From: Deltaproteobacteria bacterium
GTDB lineage: Bacteria; Desulfobacterota; DSM-4660; Desulfatiglandales; HGW-15
Direction: 5' to 3'
Assembly (NCBI GenBank): GCA_019308985.1
Contig: JAFDHB010000195.1
Coordinates: 655-8,751, forward strand
Length of the DNA: 8,097 nucleotides
Of the stretch, positions 1 to 8,097 are shown one piece after another (the first letter of the stretch is position 1; the number at the start of each line of letters is the position of its first letter). The position numbers were made by a program, and so were the translations under genes. A model generated the notes under the pieces. That model was given only the letters and a program-made list of their open reading frames with translations, was not told the DNA's origin and made no database searches.

Positions 1-590
1 GAACTCCCCCGCAGATAAGTCGCAGAAAAGACCAGCCCGGGAGGCTCGGAACGCAAGAAAAGGCATCATCACCCCCGTTCGTCCATCACCGAGTTCTCTG
101 AATCGCTTTTCAAAGGCCTAAAATGTTACCAGGGATCTTCATCGTGCCCGGCCCAGGAGTTCAAGGGGCCGTGGCTCAAGGCTGTCGAAAGGGCCCTATC
201 CGCATCCTGCTTGAGTAAATAACCCTCTCTGCACCTGCCGAGGTTGCCTGGAAGAAACATTCGGGATTTTTGTGCATGTTCAGGATAAGGACCTTCACAG
301 GAGAGTGGGCGGCCTTTATCAACGGCCCCTGTCAAGGAAAAACAGTAGACCTATTTGACTCCGCATGCAGGGTTTGCTGCCCTGCAAATTCCCCTGTATC
401 GAACAGGAATCCGCATGACAACAAGCACGAAATTTCGGGCACTGAGCGCCCTGGATCACGTTTATTCATTGGCATCTTGAAGAGGTCTTTACCGGCAGGG
501 GAAATGACCCCGAGGAATTCCCTCCAATGAAGAAGCAAGGGTGGAGCTTTTGAGGTTCACCTCTTTCAGTGGTCCGCAGGAGGATCGATC
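1..590. other. No recognisable gene; upstream spacer
   Basis: I see no supportable gene here. Short open frames exist on both strands, but none has a convincing ribosome site or a recognisable domain. One frame is open from the window edge to a TAA at 119-121 (39 basic, low-complexity residues) and could be the tail of a gene starting outside the window, but another frame is open over nearly the same stretch, so this is weak. A small inverted repeat, GCAGGG/CCCTGC, lies at 367-385 with a 7-nt loop and no T-tract. I found no sigma-54 consensus here. The promoter of the gene at 591 must lie in or before this stretch but could not be identified. Confidence 0.5.
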
Positions 591-926
591 ATGAATACAG
601 GGATTTGGTCCGAAGAGAAGGAAAAAAGAAGAAGCGAGGCCCTGGAGATGCACGAGATGCTGTCAAGGCTTTTTCGAGAAGACAGATTGGCCTTTGAGCG
701 GGAAAAAAAGAAGATGATCCATAAGGTCATAAATGGGGTGGAAGACGAGGAACGGAAACAAAGGCTCCTTGCCTTTCAAGAATCATGGGACAACAGGATG
801 AAAGCAGCGGGATCAAGCCACAATCGGTTCCTGATCGCCCAGGCCATCTTCTGGGAGCATTTTCACGGGAAATGGCACCCTGTCATAAAGGAGTTTCGCC
901 GGCTTATGGGAGGCAGGACGGACTAG
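591..926 (+). CDS. Small DUF3135-like protein
   Basis: This gene encodes a 111-residue, highly charged, probably all-helical soluble protein without signal peptide or membrane segment. The ATG is chosen because AGGAGG (578-583) sits 7 nt upstream. The pattern of a short helix, then 'LFREDRLAFERE', a basic helix, 'RLLAFQESWDNRM' and an aromatic C-terminal segment 'IFWEHFHGKW' resembles DUF3135, a family of small proteobacterial proteins with no assigned function. The match is from memory of the family pattern, so it is moderate. It converges with the receiver gene on the other strand across about 100 bp with no obvious terminator. Base composition and codon use look like the neighbours. No function is proposed. 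Confidence 0.75.
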   Translation: MNTGIWSEEKEKRRSEALEMHEMLSRLFREDRLAFEREKKKMIHKVINGVEDEERKQRLLAFQESWDNRMKAAGSSHNRFLIAQAIFWEHFHGKWHPVIKEFRRLMGGRTD

Positions 927-1029
927 CGTGAACATGGCCCTTTCAGGTAACACCCCTCTCGCAACCCCTGCTGCCCGTCGTTTTATGGCCACCTAGAACG
1001 TACCGCATGTATGGTGTAAGGATTTCGGC

Positions 1030-1497
1030 CTAATTCGGGCCTTGCTCCTGCCAAGCTTCCACCCTATGACTGGGTCCGGGGCATCTACTAAGTCTTGACG
1101 CCCACCTGATATACCTTGATACCATATTCAAGACTGCGTGCTGTAGGGCATATGGACCGACCGGCTTTTCCAGGAGGTGCTTGATGTAGGAAGCAGTGCA
1201 CATATTGACCACATCTTCGCTTGCATGGCCCGAAATAATGATACTGTTTTCATGGGCCATGGGGAATTTCTCTGAGATACCGTCCAGGAACTCAAAACAT
1301 GTCGAATCCTTCAAGAATACGTCCAGAACAAATAGAGCCACATCTTCCTTCAATCCCCTGCAATAGAATATCGCGTCGGCAGGATTGGTGAAGGAAACGA
1401 CCGGTCCCCATGTATAGAACCTTTTGATCATATCAGAAAGGATCTTGCACACCCCGGGGTCGTCTTCCAGGACAATGATTTTCAGGTCATTGTACAT
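1030..1497 (-). CDS. Stand-alone response-regulator receiver protein
   Basis: This gene encodes a 155-residue protein that is almost entirely a CheY-like receiver. The acidic cluster is E11-D12-D13, the phospho-acceptor is D59 in 'FVLDVFL', the switch serine is S89 in 'IIISGHAS', and the conserved lysine is K111 in 'LEKPV'. No DNA-binding or enzymatic output domain follows; the last 25 or so residues are basic and carry no recognisable domain. It probably acts by protein-protein contact or as a phosphorelay intermediate; the partner kinase is not visible. The start is supported by GGAGGAAT on the coding strand (1504-1511), 6 nt before the ATG. It is transcribed away from the PilZ/che run and has a strong sigma-54 promoter about 45 bp upstream of its start. 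Confidence 0.88.
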   Translation of the reverse strand: MYNDLKIIVLEDDPGVCKILSDMIKRFYTWGPVVSFTNPADAIFYCRGLKEDVALFVLDVFLKDSTCFEFLDGISEKFPMAHENSIIISGHASEDVVNMCTASYIKHLLEKPVGPYALQHAVLNMVSRYIRWASRLSRCPGPSHRVEAWQEQGPN

Positions 1498-1541
1498 CTG
1501 CCTATTCCTCCCTATTCAAAGTGCGCTTCAGGGCCCAATGC

Positions 1542-1559
1542 AAGCAGAAAACGTGCCAA
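1542..1559 (-). promoter_or_regulatory. Sigma-54 (-24/-12) promoter of the receiver gene
   Basis: Read on the minus strand this is TTGGCACGTTTTCTGCTT, compared with the consensus YTGGCACGnnnnTTGCWT. The invariant GG (1556-1557) and GC (1544-1545) are separated by exactly 10 nt. Transcription should start near 1532, giving a leader of about 35 nt that contains the Shine-Dalgarno site of the gene starting at 1497. Only one base of the -12 TTGC block deviates. This is the strongest of the three candidates in the window by match to the -24 element. Confidence 0.8.
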
Positions 1560-1933
1560 AAGAATACCGCCCTGATGGCAGGATACATGCTCAGACGCGA
1601 TATCGGTCGTTGCGCGAACGCGGAATGACACTTCTCCCCTGCGGAAACGCTCAAGGGAATAGGAATCCTTCTTGGAAGCCCGGAGAGGAGGAAGGGGTCT
1701 TCATCCCGTCAAAAAGTCGGCATTTCCTGCCGAGAGGGCAGGCTTCCCTTACCCTGCAACTCGCCCTTCTGTAGAATTTGCACATGTGTAAAGACCAGGG
1801 TCCATCGCAGATCCCGATATACTGGGGAGGACCGGCTTTTTTAGGATAAAATAAAGGCCTATGGGGTGAGCGGCGCTCATTTGTGGTAGAGACCTCCTGA
1901 ACCCTCCATTGTCACCAACTAGTTGGGTACTCA
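1560..1933. promoter_or_regulatory. Spacer between divergent sigma-54 promoters, with palindromes
   Basis: About 370 bp without a supportable gene lies between two outward-facing sigma-54 promoters, which is where an NtrC-type activator would be expected to bind. Dyad elements visible are TGAGCG-G-CGCTCA (1867-1879), the perfect 12-bp palindrome CCAACTAGTTGG (1915-1926), and two overlapping hairpins, TCGGCA/TGCCGA (1717-1733) and CCTGCC/GGCAGG (1726-1742). The second pair cannot form at the same time. The 1867-1879 dyad is about 55 bp upstream of the plus-strand -24 element and the 1915-1926 palindrome 7 bp upstream of that promoter. Which, if any, is the activator site is not decided by the sequence. 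Confidence 0.4.
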
Positions 1934-1951
1934 CTGGTACGATAATTGCAT
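1934..1951 (+). promoter_or_regulatory. Sigma-54 (-24/-12) promoter of the PilZ/che operon
   Basis: The sequence CTGGTACGATAATTGCAT matches YTGGCACGnnnnTTGCWT with a single deviation (T for C in the GGCAC block). GG (1936-1937) and GC (1948-1949) are exactly 10 nt apart and the whole -12 block is perfect. Transcription should start near 1961, leaving a leader of about 70 nt before the PilZ start at 2032. The PilZ, cheR, cheA, cheB, cheZ and cheY genes or remnants that follow are closely packed and could be one transcript from here. Confidence 0.75.
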
Positions 1952-1968
1952 TAACCCCCTGCATATAT

Positions 1969-2001
1969 CCCCGTCCCTTGACAAAACTTTGAAGGACGGG
2001 G
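1969..2001 (+). promoter_or_regulatory. Leader hairpin ahead of the PilZ gene
   Basis: CCCCGTCC (1969-1976) and GGACGGGG (1994-2001) are a perfect 8-bp inverted repeat around a 17-nt loop. It lies inside the predicted leader of the sigma-54 transcript, ending about 15 nt before the Shine-Dalgarno site (2016-2022). It lacks a T-tract, so it is not a standard intrinsic terminator. An mRNA stabiliser, an attenuator or an operator are all possible. Confidence 0.45.
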
Positions 2002-2031
2002 CTTTGATATCCTGAAGAAAGGTCCGACTCC

Positions 2032-2631
2032 ATGGCTGGAAAGGAAAGACGTTCGCACATAAGGGAAAATTTTTCCTTCAAGATCAGGTTCGGGGTTTTG
2101 ACCAGGGAGGAGTACGAAAAATCGAGCCGGCACGATCAATGTGCCCCGCCCTACCCCAGGCGGGATCTCTTAACCGAGCCTAGAAACCCGCCCAGCAGAT
2201 ATCCAGGGGACCTTCAGGACAGCGCCATGAGAGAACTGTTCCTGAGGATAGATGAAAAGCTGGACCTGTTGCTGTCTCTCCTGTGCGACAAGCAGGTCGA
2301 AGGGGGCCTGATTGAAGAGGCCACGGGAAGGAACATCAGCGGATCGGGAATGAACATGGTGAGCAGGAAGCGGGTCGAGCGAGGCAATATCATCCGTGCC
2401 AATTTTATTCTCTCCATATATCCACTTGTTATCATAGATTTATTTGGTGAAATAGTCAGGGTATCACCCGTAGAAGAGTCGGGTAAGATCCATTACAGTC
2501 ACGGTGTAAAATTCCTGGACCTGGACCCAAACGTGAGGGAGAAAGTTATAGCGTGCGTGTTTCAAAGGCAACGCCAGGCCCTCAGGAAAAGAAAACGCAT
2601 CTATTTGGAAAAGGGGAGGACAGGTGGCTGA
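2032..2631 (+). CDS. PilZ-domain protein, probable c-di-GMP receptor
   Basis: This gene encodes a 199-residue soluble protein. The N-terminus carries an RxxxR motif (R7-S-H-I-R11) and a second motif, N101-I-S-G-S-G106, fits the [D/N]xSxxG signature of PilZ domains; together these bind cyclic di-GMP in the family. The intervening segment, residues 60-90, is a helical region ('RIDEKLDLLLSLL') seen in a longer class of PilZ proteins. Beta-strand-like sequence fills 120-165, and the C-terminus is a basic helix. AGAAAGG (2016-2022) precedes the ATG by 9 nt. The gene overlaps the cheR start by 8 bp, indicating translational coupling. Its place at the head of a chemotaxis operon suggests it links c-di-GMP level to motility; this is inference. 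It shows no damage, unlike the genes immediately downstream. Confidence 0.8.
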   Translation: MAGKERRSHIRENFSFKIRFGVLTREEYEKSSRHDQCAPPYPRRDLLTEPRNPPSRYPGDLQDSAMRELFLRIDEKLDLLLSLLCDKQVEGGLIEEATGRNISGSGMNMVSRKRVERGNIIRANFILSIYPLVIIDLFGEIVRVSPVEESGKIHYSHGVKFLDLDPNVREKVIACVFQRQRQALRKRKRIYLEKGRTGG

Positions 2632-3220
2632 ACCGATCCTGAGAGAGGGGGAATTCCAAAAATTCAGCCGTTACATCTACGAGACGTGCGGCATCAACCT
2701 TCACGACGGCAAAAAAGAACTGCTCAAGGCGAGGCTCGGGAAGATAATTCGATCAAGGAACTTCTCCTCATACAGAGAGTACTTCGATCATGTGCTAAAC
2801 GACACTAGCGGCTATGAACTCACGATTCTCATCAACTCCATCTCCACCAACTTGACCTACTTCCTCAGGGAGTCACAACACCTTGAGTTTTTGACCCGTA
2901 GGGCCCTCCCGGAGATCGCCGAGGCCGCCAAAACCAAAGAAATCTTCAAGGACCGTCCTCTGCGCCTATGGAGCGCGGGATGCTCTTCCGGCGAGGAGCC
3001 GTACAGCATCGCGATAACCCTGAACGAGGCAAGAAATGGTCTTAGGAATTTCCAGGTGGAAATCCTTGCCACGGATATATCAACAAAGGTCCTGTCCGCC
3101 GCAGGCAAGGGCATATATGAGAAGAAAAAATCGAAGGGAGACCCCTTGATCTGAAGAGGAAATATTTTCTATAAGAACCTTTCCAGTCCCGGTTACCTCT
3201 TCCTCGGTCACGCAGGATCA
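2624..3220 (+). pseudogene. cheR: CheR chemoreceptor methyltransferase, broken by frameshift and internal deletion
   Basis: CheR methylates receptor glutamates using AdoMet. From the GTG at 2624 the product shows the CheR N-terminal helical domain (about 10-100), the family stretch 'STNLTYFLRE' (74-83), the AdoMet motif 'GCSSGEEPYS' (119-128) and 'LATDIS' (148-153). At an A6 run (3125-3130) the frame drops by one and ends at TGA 3152 after 176 residues. Reading -1 there recovers 'LDLKRKYF', but that frame stops at 3172-3174. The original frame then resumes near 3167 with 'FYKNLSSPGYLFLGHAGS', the C-terminal CheR core. Compared with E. coli CheR, about 60 residues between 'KYF' and this block are missing, including the 'CRNVMIYF' region. 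The last 20 or so residues of a normal CheR also seem absent. The gene should be non-functional unless the assembly is wrong. Confidence 0.85.
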
Positions 3221-3286
3221 AACAACCTCCTTGGGCAAGACCAGGAAGAAGCAGCGGGATCGACCGAACGGGAAGGGGAGGCAAGA

Positions 3287-4062
<776 letters not shown>

Positions 4063-4089
4063 GACCAACTAATAGGAAAGGATGAGGCC

Positions 4090-4878
4090 ATGAGACAGGA
4101 CCTGAAAGAGGAAGTTACGAGCTTAGTGGATAAACAACTCTCGATCGAGGAATTTGACAGGCTCACCGACCTGTTCAAGCAAATATTGAACGGAAACATG
4201 GACAATGAAGGGGACCGTTTTTTCAGGTCCCTTGCTTACGAACTGACCGGTGAATTGAAGGAGCTTGCCCAATTGATCATCGATTTCAGGAGAGAGATCA
4301 ACTCAAAGATCCACCCCAATATCACGGACCTGACTTCAAAGTTCTTACCCCAGACGAGCGATCAACTGAAGGCAATAATCGAGGCCACTGAAATGGCCGC
4401 CAACAAAATCATGGACAACCTGGAAAACATGCAGGAAGAGACAGAGAAAGCCAAAGACATCTTAACTTCACTGAGGCACGGGAGAACAGAGGTGCGGGGA
4501 GAGGGGGGAGAAAAGATCGAGATCGCCGTAAACAAAGAGACCGTCGGTGAGATCTCGCCCCTTCTCGATTACATGGAATCAACCGCCGGGACTTTCCTCT
4601 CTTTGATATCCGATTCCATTGTCCAGATGAGCTTCCAGGACCTGACAGGCCAGAGGGTAAAACGGGTGATGGAGCTCGTTGGCAAGATGGAGGAAAGGCT
4701 GAAAAATATGATCCTGTCTTTCGGCATCAAGCTGACTGAGAAGGAAAAAAATCCCCGCATGTCCGACGAGGAACTGGACAGGGTCGTTGAAAAAAAGGTG
4801 ACGGAGCTGGCAGGGCCGCAAAGGGAGGGAGAAGGCCTTGACCAGGCCGATATAGATAAAATCCTTGCGAGGATATAA
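4090..4878 (+). CDS. cheZ: CheZ, CheY-phosphate phosphatase
   Basis: This is a 262-residue cytoplasmic protein, longer than the 214 residues of E. coli CheZ. It shows the long helical hairpin of the family (about 50-215) and the signature 'SFQDLTGQRVKRVMELV'. D184 and Q188 correspond to E. coli D143 and the catalytic Q147, which positions water for hydrolysis of CheY aspartyl-phosphate. A charged linker (215-248) leads to 'LDQADIDKILARI', which fits the C-terminal CheY-binding peptide of CheZ and resembles the FliM N-terminal peptide. GGAAAGGA (4075-4082) precedes the ATG by 7 nt. It lies 27 bp after the cheB remnant and 24 bp before cheY. It is intact and looks functional. Confidence 0.92.
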   Translation: MRQDLKEEVTSLVDKQLSIEEFDRLTDLFKQILNGNMDNEGDRFFRSLAYELTGELKELAQLIIDFRREINSKIHPNITDLTSKFLPQTSDQLKAIIEATEMAANKIMDNLENMQEETEKAKDILTSLRHGRTEVRGEGGEKIEIAVNKETVGEISPLLDYMESTAGTFLSLISDSIVQMSFQDLTGQRVKRVMELVGKMEERLKNMILSFGIKLTEKEKNPRMSDEELDRVVEKKVTELAGPQREGEGLDQADIDKILARI

Positions 4879-4902
4879 AAATCAATTAAAGGAGGGAGTA
4901 AA

Positions 4903-5277
4903 ATGGATCTCAGCATGAAAGTCCTCATTGTGGATGATTTTGCCACAATGAGGAGGATCTTGAGAAATGTGCTGAAGCAAATCGGTTTTTCAAACATCAG
5001 CGAGGCGGAAGACGGCAGGGCTGCCATTAAGGAGCTGAAAAAGGACAAGTACGGCCTCGTACTTTGCGACTGGAATATGCCTGGGGTTACAGGCATTGAA
5101 GTGCTGACCCAAATGAGATCGGACAGTGAGCTGAAAGACATACCTTTTGTCATGGTCACAGCAGAGGCACAAAAGGAGAACATCATAGAGGCGGTCAAGG
5201 CTGGGGTGAACAGTTACATAGTAAAGCCCTTTACAGCAGAGACAATCGAAGAAAAATTGAAGAAGATATTCGGCTGA
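4903..5277 (+). CDS. cheY: CheY chemotaxis response regulator
   Basis: This is a 124-residue single receiver domain very close in pattern to E. coli CheY. The acidic pair D11-D12 lies in 'LIVDDFATMRRILRNVLKQ', the phosphorylation site is D56 in 'LCDWNMPG', and T86, Y105 and K108 ('SYIVKPF') are all present. Phosphorylated CheY binds the flagellar switch protein FliM and changes motor rotation; CheZ next door removes the phosphate. The start at 4903 is preferred over the internal ATG at 4915 because GGAGGGAG (4891-4898) is correctly spaced from it; this is the best ribosome site in the operon. With CheA reduced to its Hpt domain locally, phosphate would have to come from another kinase in the cell. 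Confidence 0.95.
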   Translation: MDLSMKVLIVDDFATMRRILRNVLKQIGFSNISEAEDGRAAIKELKKDKYGLVLCDWNMPGVTGIEVLTQMRSDSELKDIPFVMVTAEAQKENIIEAVKAGVNSYIVKPFTAETIEEKLKKIFG

Positions 5278-5290
5278 TGCCCCCTAACCT

Positions 5291-5417
5291 TGATGGCTTC
5301 GTAAAAAGGTCCAATTTCTGCGTTGCGCTTCATCTCGTTGTGATTGGGCGTACGCTAAGTACGGCTCATCACACGAGATTCGCGTGCCTTGAACTTGGAG
5401 CTTTTTGCTTTGCCATC
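5291..5417. repeat. MITE-like/REP-like repeat, copy 1
   Basis: This element of about 127 bp starts with TGATGGCTTCGTAAAAAG (5291-5308) and ends with an imperfect inverted version, CTTTTTGCTTTGCCATC (5401-5417). In the middle is a long stem-loop: ATCTCGTTGTGAT (5332-5344) pairs with ATCACACGAGAT (5368-5379) with one bulge, and inside it CGTAC/GTACG (5349-5363) surrounds a 5-nt loop. It has no coding capacity. I recall similar sequences dispersed in deltaproteobacterial genomes, but this could not be checked here. Confidence 0.65.
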
Positions 5418-5424
5418 TCAATTT

Positions 5425-5583
5425 TGATGGTCTCGTAAAAAGTCTCAAAACCGTCATGCCGGACTTGATCCGGCATGCAGAAGCCATTGAATTTACTGGA
5501 TTCTGGCTGGAGTTTATCCCGCACTTAAGATGCGGGGCCGGAATGACAGAAAAGAGCGCTTTCCGACTTTTTACGAGTTCATA
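5425..5583. repeat. MITE-like/REP-like repeat, copy 2
   Basis: This second element lies 7 bp after the first. Its left end, ATGGTCTCGTAAAAAGTC (5427-5444), and right end, GACTTTTTACGAGTTCAT (5565-5582), are inverted repeats matching at 16 of 18 positions. Nested inside is another pair, GTCATGCCGG (5453-5462) and CCGGAATGAC (about 5538-5547). A perfect 8-bp hairpin ATGCCGGA/TCCGGCAT (5456-5476) has the loop CTTGA. The inner motif belongs to the widespread 'GTCATnCCGG' class of proteobacterial REP elements. There is no transposase, so mobility would depend on an enzyme supplied elsewhere. Confidence 0.7.
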
Positions 5584-5645
5584 AACCTTGTTCTCCCCAT
5601 AGCCCCGACGCATTCGCGCAGAACTTTCCGGAAAGGAGTTGCAAA

Positions 5646-6056
5646 ATGGAAACAAATAGGATACTTGAAACGAATATCGCAGAATTACCCGTTTCCGGCT
5701 CCGGTAACAGGGTGGAAAAGGATAACGGATTTAAAGAGATCCTGGAGCGGGAGGTTTCGCAAATAGGGGGAGCGGGTGCCGCAACACCCCCTTGTGCAAG
5801 GGTGGACCTTCTTGCCCGCAGTGAACGGATACTCGACCTTCTGGATGCCTATGCGAGAGATCTGCATACTCCTTCAAAGACCCTGAGGGATATGGAGCCC
5901 CTGGTAAAGGGTATCCAGGAGGAGGCCGGTGCCCTGGAAAGGCAACTCGTCGATATGGCGCCGGGTGACACTGAGCTTGGGAACGTGATCAGGGAAGTGG
6001 CTGTCATTGCAAGTGTTGCCGCATTCAAGTTTTACCGCGGCGATTACATGGGGTAG
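5646..6056 (+). CDS. Conserved helical protein of unknown function, C-terminal RGDY
   Basis: This gene encodes a 136-residue protein without signal peptide or membrane segment. After a variable N-terminus (1-40) comes a short Ala/Pro-rich stretch (43-50), then helical sequence. That starts with 'ERILDLLDAYARDL', continues through 'LVKGIQEEAGALERQL' and ends 'ASVAAFKFYRGDYMG'. I recall small deltaproteobacterial proteins near motility genes with the same layout (helical, a central Pro, a final 'KFxRGDY'), but I know no assigned role. AAAGGAG (5633-5639) precedes the ATG by 6 nt. It lies between cheY, from which the repeats separate it, and the sigma-54 activator gene. The short hairpin TAGGGG/CCCCTA (6054-6072) includes its stop codon. 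Confidence 0.7.
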   Translation: METNRILETNIAELPVSGSGNRVEKDNGFKEILEREVSQIGGAGAATPPCARVDLLARSERILDLLDAYARDLHTPSKTLRDMEPLVKGIQEEAGALERQLVDMAPGDTELGNVIREVAVIASVAAFKFYRGDYMG

Positions 6057-6127
6057 GGGGCCTTTTCCCCTAGATTGCGTTTGAGGTCCAATCCACCTAT
6101 CATGCAAGGCTGAGGTACATCCAGGAT

Positions 6128-7536
6128 ATGGCAAGGATACTGGCAATAGACGATGAGCCGATGGTGCTGAGGGTCGTGGCCGAGACGCTGAAGACCAGGG
6201 ACTATGAAGTCGTAACGGCCCATGGGGGCAAAGAGGGGATCAAGAAGTTTCAAAACGACACGTTTGACCTGGTCCTTACCGATGTAATGATGCCCGACAT
6301 CGATGGAATGGAGGTTCTAAACCATGTGGTGACCAGCTCACCGGGTACCAGGTGTATCATTCTCACCGGTTACGGAAGCATCAAGGGATCGGTCGAGGCC
6401 ATGAAAAACGGGGCCTTTGACTATATCACCAAGCCTATTGCCCCGGAAGAGCTCTTGCTGGTTGTTGAAAAGGCCCTGAAGTTCATGGATCTCGAGGCGG
6501 AGAATATCAGGCTGAAAGGCTGAAAAAGGAGCTTCAAAGGAAATACCACCACAAGAACATCATCGGTACCAGTGATGCGATAAAGAGGATATACTATTTG
6601 ATAGATAAGGTTTCAGATACGGATGGCGCGGTCCTGATAACCGGACCCAGCGGGACAGGCAAAGAATTGATAGCGAGGGCTATCCACTATAACAGCAGCC
6701 GGGCAGACAAACCCCTGGTCACCATCAATTGCGCTGCAATCCCTGGAGAGCTGCTTGAAAGCGAAATCTTCGGGCACGAAAAAGGGGCGTTTACCGGGGC
6801 CCACAAGAGGCGAATAGGCCGATTTGAAATGGCAAACGGCGGCACAGTCTTCCTGGACGAAGTGGGAGAGATGAGCCCCGCCCTTCAGGTCAAGCTGCTG
6901 AGGGTATTGCAGGAGCACGAATTTGAAAGACTCGGGGGGACCAGGACCATCCACGTGGATGTCAGGATTATCTCGGCCACAAACCAGGACCTCACCGTCG
7001 CCATAAACAACGGGAGGTTTAGAGAGGATCTGTATTACAGATTGAATGTCATCCCCATCAAGGTCCCACCATTGAAAAGGCGGAAATCCGATATTCCCAT
7101 CCTCATCGAGCATTTTCTAAAAAAATTTCAAAGGAACAAAAGGGGCCACAAGGTCACGGGGTTCTCCGAAGAGGCCTTGAAGGCCTTGTACGACTATGAC
7201 TGGACCGGTAATGTGAGAGAGCTCGAAAACGTCGTCAAAAGCATAACCATCCTTTGTGAAAATACCATAGCCGACATCGGTGACTTGCCGGAACACATCC
7301 AGGAACGCCATATGTCCATTCGACATCACACCTGGCCTGAACGAAGAGTTCCGGAGCAGGGGATATCCCTCGACGAGGCAGTGAAGGACTTTGAAAAAAG
7401 GCTTATCCTTGACGCACTGGAAAGGAGCAACTGGGTCAAATCAAAGGCGGCCAAGCTTCTCAACATCAAGAGAACGACCCTCGTGGAAAAAATCAAGAAA
7501 CGTAACATTGAAATGACAGCCCCGGGCCGGGCCTGA
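6128..7536 (+). pseudogene. NtrC-family sigma-54 activator, split by a frameshift in the linker
   Basis: This encodes a two-component activator of sigma-54 RNA polymerase. Residues 1-125 are a receiver: D8-D9, phospho-acceptor D52 ('LTDVMMPD'), T80 and K102. That frame ends at TGA 6521. From about 6520 the other frame encodes the rest. It begins 'LKKELQRKYHHKNIIG', then Walker A 'GPSGTGKE' and 'GAFTGA' (needed to contact sigma-54). Next are Walker B '[11 protein letters not shown]', sensor I 'SATNQD', the arginine-finger region 'FREDLYYRLNV' and 'WTGNVRELEN'. It ends in a Fis-type helix-turn-helix ('SKAAKLLNIKRTTLVEKIKK'). Every domain is intact; only the receiver-AAA+ linker is out of frame. 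An exact 8-bp tandem repeat lies at the break. Deleting one unit gives 1401 nt, a clean 466-residue protein. It may be a real off-state, recent decay or a sequence error. Confidence 0.88.
6509..6525 (+). repeat. 8-bp tandem direct repeat causing the frameshift
   Basis: AGGCTGAA occurs twice back to back (6509-6516 and 6517-6524), with period 8 continuing one further base. It sits in the coiled-coil linker of the activator gene. With two units the receiver frame meets TGA at 6521. With one unit the reading is 'NIRLKKELQRKY', the expected linker sequence, in the frame of the AAA+ domain. Because 8 is not a multiple of 3, gain or loss of one unit would switch the gene off or on. Confidence 0.8.
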
Positions 7537-7818
7537 AAGACCTAAACCCGTCAAAATAATGACATATCCTTATACCCCTGACTATAACCTTCCATTCTTT
7601 TCCCTTCCCTAGCGCCGGTCGAGGGAATGGAGCCTGATGGCCTGTGCGCTCTAGTCTGGAATACCCGGTAGCAACGGCAGCAACAGTTTCCTAGCAGTGA
7701 AGGGACTCCTCCTGTAGATTTTGGCATAGTAATTGCTGAGATACCCAACAATCAAGGATAAAGAAATTATTGGGGTGAATTCATCCAGGGGACTGGACTT
7801 TCTTCCACGGGTCAGGTA
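7537..7818. other. Intergenic region between the activator and the AMIN gene
   Basis: No gene is supported in these 282 bp. The region contains the sigma-54 promoter at 7721-7738 and a small hairpin in its leader, TCCAG/CTGGA (7784-7797). About 180 bp upstream of the promoter are available for activator binding, but no clear pair of dyad sites is visible. There is no convincing rho-independent terminator after the activator gene. Confidence 0.5.
7721..7738 (+). promoter_or_regulatory. Sigma-54 (-24/-12) promoter of the AMIN-domain gene
   Basis: The sequence TTGGCATAGTAATTGCTG matches YTGGCACGnnnnTTGCWT well. GG (7723-7724) and GC (7735-7736) are exactly 10 nt apart and the TTGCT block is perfect. 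Transcription should start near 7748. The distance from the GC to the start codon at 7819 is 83 nt, the same as at the PilZ promoter. Confidence 0.72.
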
Positions 7819-8097
7819 ATGGTGACTCTTTTCTTCATTCTGATCATGCTGGTCCTGTCTTCCCCGAGGGCTGTTGCGGCCGATAATCATCCTGCACGCT
7901 ACGGGGGCCGTACCGATAGGCTACTCTTGATAGCTTACGGGATGCACGAATCCGGGCACGATAGGAAACCAATAGCCATTGAGATACCGGGCGATGGCAG
8001 GATACTGGACTACTCAACCAGCACCATGCTTTCCCCCCCGAGGATCGCCATCGATATTTTCGGCATTACCGACCCCTTCCGCACCATGATGACCCCT
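7819..8097 (+). CDS. Exported AMIN-domain protein (5' part, runs off the window)
   Basis: The frame is open for 93 codons from ATG 7819 to the window end, so the gene is incomplete. Residues 1-21 are a signal peptide: a hydrophobic core 'LFFILIMLVL' and an 'AVAA' cleavage region before Asp22. Residues about 40-90 have the AMIN pattern: 'PIAIEIPGDGRILDY', a short loop, then 'SPPRIAIDIFG'. AMIN domains bind peptidoglycan and occur at the N-terminus of periplasmic amidases (AmiC) and of PilQ-type secretins, so those are the main candidates for the missing part. The next in-frame stop upstream is at 7759. The ribosome site is weak, making the exact start less sure. A sigma-54 promoter lies just upstream. 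Confidence 0.75.
   Translation, partial: MVTLFFILIMLVLSSPRAVAADNHPARYGGRTDRLLLIAYGMHESGHDRKPIAIEIPGDGRILDYSTSTMLSPPRIAIDIFGITDPFRTMMTP

Follow-up and report, generated by a model that had tools for sequence, protein, structure and literature searches.

A recent 8-bp tandem duplication probably inactivates a flagellar-cluster sigma-54 activator beside already decayed chemotaxis genes in a deltaproteobacterium

In Geobacter sulfurreducens the gene for FgrM is reportedly interrupted by a transposon in strain PCA and said to be intact in strain KN400. Strain PCA is described as lacking both FgrM, an RpoN-dependent flagellar activator, and flagella (PMC8844916). Regarding repeats of short units, the FlgR-type gene of Campylobacter is presented as phase-variable with reversible tracts in one account (PMC3930126), while a review terms the short flgR tracts non-reversible (PMC8355987), and among C. 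jejuni motility variants the flgR, flgS and motA regions were reported as unchanged (PMC5021803). A 6-bp repeat in mutL is described as going from three copies to two, which illustrates that low-copy repeats are able to switch, and the same source gives no conversion in more than 10,000 colonies of non-mutator strains (PMC2955026). The lesions reported in lrp mutants include tandem duplications of 26-116 bp, with no genetic reversion in the 8 isolates tested (PMC6786866). The titles and abstracts listed in literature searches for comparable cases mention no flagellar sigma-54 activator with an 8-bp duplication.

The window, the whole 8,097-nt stretch of DNA to which all positions below refer, encodes an NtrC-family sigma-54 response regulator whose receiver, sigma-54 AAA+ and Fis-type HTH domains are all present when its two pieces are searched apart, and no single continuous frame spans them. 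The activator has the following features, compared with G001, the nearest of the genomes compared, which has 90% of the sampled words of the window in common and is 91% complete:

6128..6523, plus strand: receiver-domain ORF of 131 aa (Response_reg, E 1.1e-29), closed by TGA 6521-6523 inside the linker
6509..6525, plus strand: derived tandem duplication, AGGCTGAA twice plus a matching A, with one unit in contig C283 of G001
6523..7536, plus strand: out-of-phase remainder with the second half of the linker, the sigma-54 AAA+ domain, the lid and HTH_8 (Pfam Sigma54_activat, E 1.5e-73; HTH_8, E 3e-15)
6598..7536, plus strand: longest ORF in the frame of the remainder with a common start codon (TTG), beginning within the ATPase domain
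7105..7206, plus strand: patch with eight of the nine codon differences from G001, Pro-to-Thr at 7204 among them

The unit stands in two perfect copies, with one further matching A at 6525, at the very point where the activator changes frame, which agrees with the original prediction. The two-unit array AGGCTGAAAGGCTGAA (6509-6524) has a single occurrence in the window and is its sole perfect tandem pair with a period of 7-30. By chance 0.135 perfect 2x8 pairs are expected, with at least one in 27 of 200 dinucleotide shuffles of the window, and the repeat by itself is weak evidence; the duplication is meaningful because it is located at the frame break and because G001 is short of exactly 8 bp there. 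A unit of 8 bp shifts the reading frame. Probably, a slip in replication duplicated 8 bp of formerly unique sequence, after which a ribosome would translate the receiver and half of the linker and then meet the TGA at 6521. As a way past this stop, programmed frameshifting was considered and rejected by eye, neither a slippery heptamer nor a long homopolymer being seen ahead of the TGA.

In the frame of the AAA+ and HTH domains no ATG, GTG or TTG occurs from the stop at 6466 to 6598, and the TTG at 6598 comes another 25 codons along, already within the ATPase domain, such that a protein started there would lack the first 13 of the 168 sigma-54 domain positions and with them NIIGTS. Loss of activator function is likely on this account. 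Receiver removal activates some relatives, for example NtrC1, and an AAA+/HTH half still made from TTG 6598 and acting free of phosphorylation control might be envisaged, given that the break falls in the linker between receiver and ATPase and that an SD-like AGAGGA lies 8 bases ahead of the TTG; this is very improbable, as AGAGGA merely represents conserved Lys-Arg codons, the truncated start removes the domain positions just described, and the Pro-to-Thr change strikes WPGNVRE.

Contig C283 of G001 starts at 6390 and from there matches the window through to its last position with 99% identity (1689 of 1708 columns), the sole gap being the 8 bp at the duplication site; from 6404 to 7106 the two sequences are the same apart from these 8 bp. 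The linker NIRLKKELQRKY, which had been predicted for a one-unit form, is seen directly in G001, where an open frame leads across the linker LEAENIRLKKELQRKY, on to the ATPase domain and up to the stop, so that within the extent of the contig, whose edge removes most of the receiver, the domains share one frame. The alternative of a single lost G in the linker is refuted by the clean 8-bp difference. P0002, a natural relative with 90% identity to P0001, has its 466 aa in one protein with an intact domain set by Pfam, and the orthologous activator of G007 (Act1) is likewise a single protein. The comparison of linkers in homologues gave the motif EN.RL[KR], as in the one-unit form, in 119 of the 120 inspected (the best 120 of 7998, the G001 protein included), the remaining one reading EDNARLKR, and the receiver KP and the Walker motif are 69 residues apart in 118 of the 120 and 67 apart in one, with the pattern unmatched in one. 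Given the single unit of G001 and the linker motif of the homologues, the one-unit form is ancestral and the duplication derived. The frame-breaking lesion was absent from close relatives, and the two-unit form is known from one sequence only: a query with the 131-aa receiver ORF returned 164 proteins, the closest among the 120 listed at 66% identity, and no second record of the split form, in a search where clustering at 90% and length limits could conceal truncated copies. For P0002 no NCBIfam equivalog (FlgR, FlbD, NtrC and others) stood over its cut-off among the best 25 of 117 matches, and Rfam gave no match on the window at gathering thresholds.

Regarding the neighbourhood, the plus strand carries, in order, a PilZ gene, remnants of cheR, cheA and cheB, cheZ, cheY, a 136-aa ORF, the two-frame activator and the start of a larger gene, including:

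2624..3154, plus strand: cheR remnant, residues 3-171 of 277 of the G007 protein, the same in G001
3287..3733, plus strand: cheA remnant, Hpt region, residues 162-274 of 755 of G007 CheA, the same in G001
3724..4062 (match from 3703), plus strand: cheB remnant, methylesterase end, residues 232-344 of 350 of G007 CheB
4090..4878, plus strand: cheZ, apparently intact (Pfam and G007 comparison)
4903..5277, plus strand: cheY, apparently intact (Pfam and G007 comparison)
7819..8097, plus strand: beginning of a gene for a TPR/AMIN-domain protein, which has 876 aa in G001

The 136-aa ORF (5646-6056), which adjoins the activator, is without Pfam or NCBIfam match. G007, a genome of the same family, has the cluster intact and in the same order, PilZ, CheR, CheA, CheD, HDOD, CheY, CheX, CheB, CheZ, CheY and activator, followed by the TPR/AMIN protein, a second sigma-54 activator and a flagellar operon, these names having been read from the sequences and from how they match window genes and not from a family search. 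Compared with G007, the window has lost most of cheA, cheD, the HDOD gene, a cheY, cheX and the beginning of cheB; CheD, HDOD and CheX of G007 gave no match when searched in it, and the CheY beside CheX matched there only paralogous receivers.

Against 53-3866 of the window, contig C416 of G001 shows 5 substitutions and a single 21-bp indel, none past 2270; it is identical to the window over 2270-3866 and carries the same che remnants to its end, with the cheB remnant in an identical state up to 3866. Because the same remnants are found in G001, the cheR-cheA-cheB lesions predate the split of the two strains, and of the window and G001 the activator lesion is in the window only. The stretch 3867-6389 was searched in G001 and was not found, apart from a repeat at 5284-5577. 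A second intact copy of the che cluster in G001 was considered and rejected, the two CheA matches being paralogues (32% and 39% identity to G007 CheA), although such a copy could have been missed in a genome of this completeness. The flagellar operon on C283 has counterparts to nearly all G007 genes; the exceptions are a 559-aa G007 ORF unmatched above the 35% identity filter and one counterpart of 469 against 580 aa, and the last counterpart is cut off by the end of the contig. Pfam served to check the TPR/AMIN protein, the second activator, FliF and FliG of G001; the putative FlgB of this genome is without Pfam match, and it has three flagellin-domain matches. On this gene content the flagellar operon of G001 looks largely intact, and the lineage does not appear to have plainly abandoned flagella, which weighs against the best explanation given below.

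Two dispersed repeats and the site of the 21-bp indel were also noted. With 40 of 260 candidates scored, a repeat of about 130 bp at 1-131 accounts for 31 of 41 G001 match rows; it often lies at contig ends and is probably the end of a mobile element; a second at 5284-5577, between cheY and the 136-aa ORF, accounts for 8 of the 41. At 365, where no gene family was called, G001 has 21 bp more, which are not a plain tandem copy of the flanks.

Regarding sigma-54 control, the three promoters named in the original prediction are borne out as three sigma-54-like sites with one mismatch to the pattern TGGCAC-N5-TTGC:

1544..1558, minus strand: upstream of the minus-strand response-regulator ORF 1030-1497
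1935..1949, plus strand: upstream of the PilZ gene
7722..7736, plus strand: between the activator and the next gene

Only 0.41 such sites are expected and none of 200 shuffles reached three, while sites with two mismatches (6 against 6.34 expected) are no better than chance. In G007 a perfect site lies between the orthologues of the two genes that flank the site at 7722, in G010 one follows the activator, and sigma-54 control of the region is plausible from these patterns. In G010 (L128, 9108-11765) the activator stands beside a MinD/FlhG-like gene, named by eye, with the perfect site between them; flagellin N-domain and CheA dimerisation-domain matches were both absent from G010, and the activator may have another role there. 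The claim that the broken gene is the only sigma-54 activator holds inside the window, but G001 encodes a second one two genes downstream of its counterpart; for the activator stretch, 20 DNA matches are listed in G001, the gene itself included and some being two pieces of one contig. The broken gene is thus not the sole possible activator of the region.

Between the window and G001, nine codons of the activator differ, eight of them nonsynonymously and one synonymously, and eight of the nine lie in the patch of about 100 bp, where seven of the eight changes are nonsynonymous. At 6401, 7108, 7177 and 7204 the residue of G001 is shared by 108-119 of 119 homologues and that of the window by 0-4; the commoner residue at 7141 is that of G001, the window stands nearer to the homologues than G001 at 7150 and 7186, and at 7168 neither residue is common among them. 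Contrary to the earlier statement that every catalytic motif is intact, the Pro of WPGNVRE, which 120 of 120 homologues have, is replaced by Thr in the window. The 8:1 ratio and the lost Pro suggest relaxed constraint, though with eight of nine codons in one patch, which could stem from gene conversion, relaxed constraint or misassembly. This clustering keeps the sign of decay tied to the quality of the assembly. The second likeliest reading, though an unlikely one, is an artefact of assembly or consensus, in which two contigs with an 8-bp overlap were joined end to end or strain variants were merged and the gene is really intact. An unmerged contig overlap would leave just such a clean 8-bp duplicate, and the 8-codon patch 0.6 kb downstream is unlike scattered drift and might be chimeric; against this, no run of N or other break occurs at the duplication site, and in 6390-8097 outside the patch one base differs from G001 besides the 8 bp.

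An on/off switch driven by slippage, in which one-unit and two-unit forms interconvert often enough for mixed populations, ranks third and is improbable. Its unit length is not a multiple of 3, an 8-bp direct repeat is available for the return step, both states exist in close strains, and the Campylobacter and mutL reports cited above offer parallels, while the non-reversible flgR tracts of the review, the mutL colony counts and the unreverted lrp isolates speak the other way. Slippage-driven switching as originally proposed is unsupported, there being only two copies of the unit, an ancestral single copy that is not a repeat and further changes of the split allele at conserved residues; the split form was also not found in other records, within a limited search. 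In a contingency locus the unstable tract is present in the working state, whereas G001 has one unit. As there is no repeat in the one-unit state, unique sequence gave rise to the duplication, and the forward step needs a fresh one; this asymmetry with the return step is that of an ordinary tandem-duplication mutation and not of a contingency tract. Of much the same low probability is a minimal two-unit contingency switch, a reversible 8-bp duplication in the receiver-AAA+ linker by which populations of an environmental deltaproteobacterium would hedge between flagellate and non-flagellate, or regulated and receiver-free, states. The contig ends of G001 gave no sign of a mixture of the two forms. 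The start of C283 was considered as a mark of coexisting alleles and rejected, since it lies at 6390 and the forms first differ at 6518; the prefixes shared among 20 contig ends at a repeat in G001 are most commonly 111 bases long (30 of 204 matching ordered pairs), and the assembly word was probably near 111.

Thus, the best of these explanations, and a fairly probable one, is that a recent 8-bp duplication inactivated the activator of a flagellar cluster, giving a loss-of-function allele in a lineage whose che genes had already decayed and not a dedicated switch. The earlier interpretation is, as a whole, partly supported. The locus would appear to capture flagellar regulation at an early stage of its loss, with structural genes largely intact in the sister genome and the chemotaxis cluster gutted, in which a mutation that cuts the activator in one strain is in principle exactly reversible. 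If both alleles occur in one population, the locus would offer a natural example, in a sigma-54 activator, of a slippage switch about as small as can be; otherwise it would be ordinary decay.

Regarding known systems, the Aquifex-type NtrC1 structures 4l4u and 1ny5 have receiver, linker, AAA+ and, in 4l4u, C-terminal domain in the same order as the activator, 4l4u aligning to residues 3-458 of 466 of P0002, but are intact single proteins. The mutL 6-bp alleles of Salmonella and E. coli resemble the locus in that one short unit gained or lost at low copy alters protein function, but there three copies are the working form, the frame is kept and conversion was observed, whereas here one copy works and the frame is lost. 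In Campylobacter jejuni FlgR, an NtrC-type flagellar response regulator is likewise put out of frame through a length change in a short repeat, in homopolymer tracts there and in a newly arisen two-copy 8-mer here. In the FgrM case, as here, a flagellar sigma-54 activator is absent from one strain, which there explains a non-flagellate strain; here the lesion is an 8-bp duplication and the sister genome has a second activator close by. By analogy, strain-level loss of such a regulator has its precedent in FgrM.
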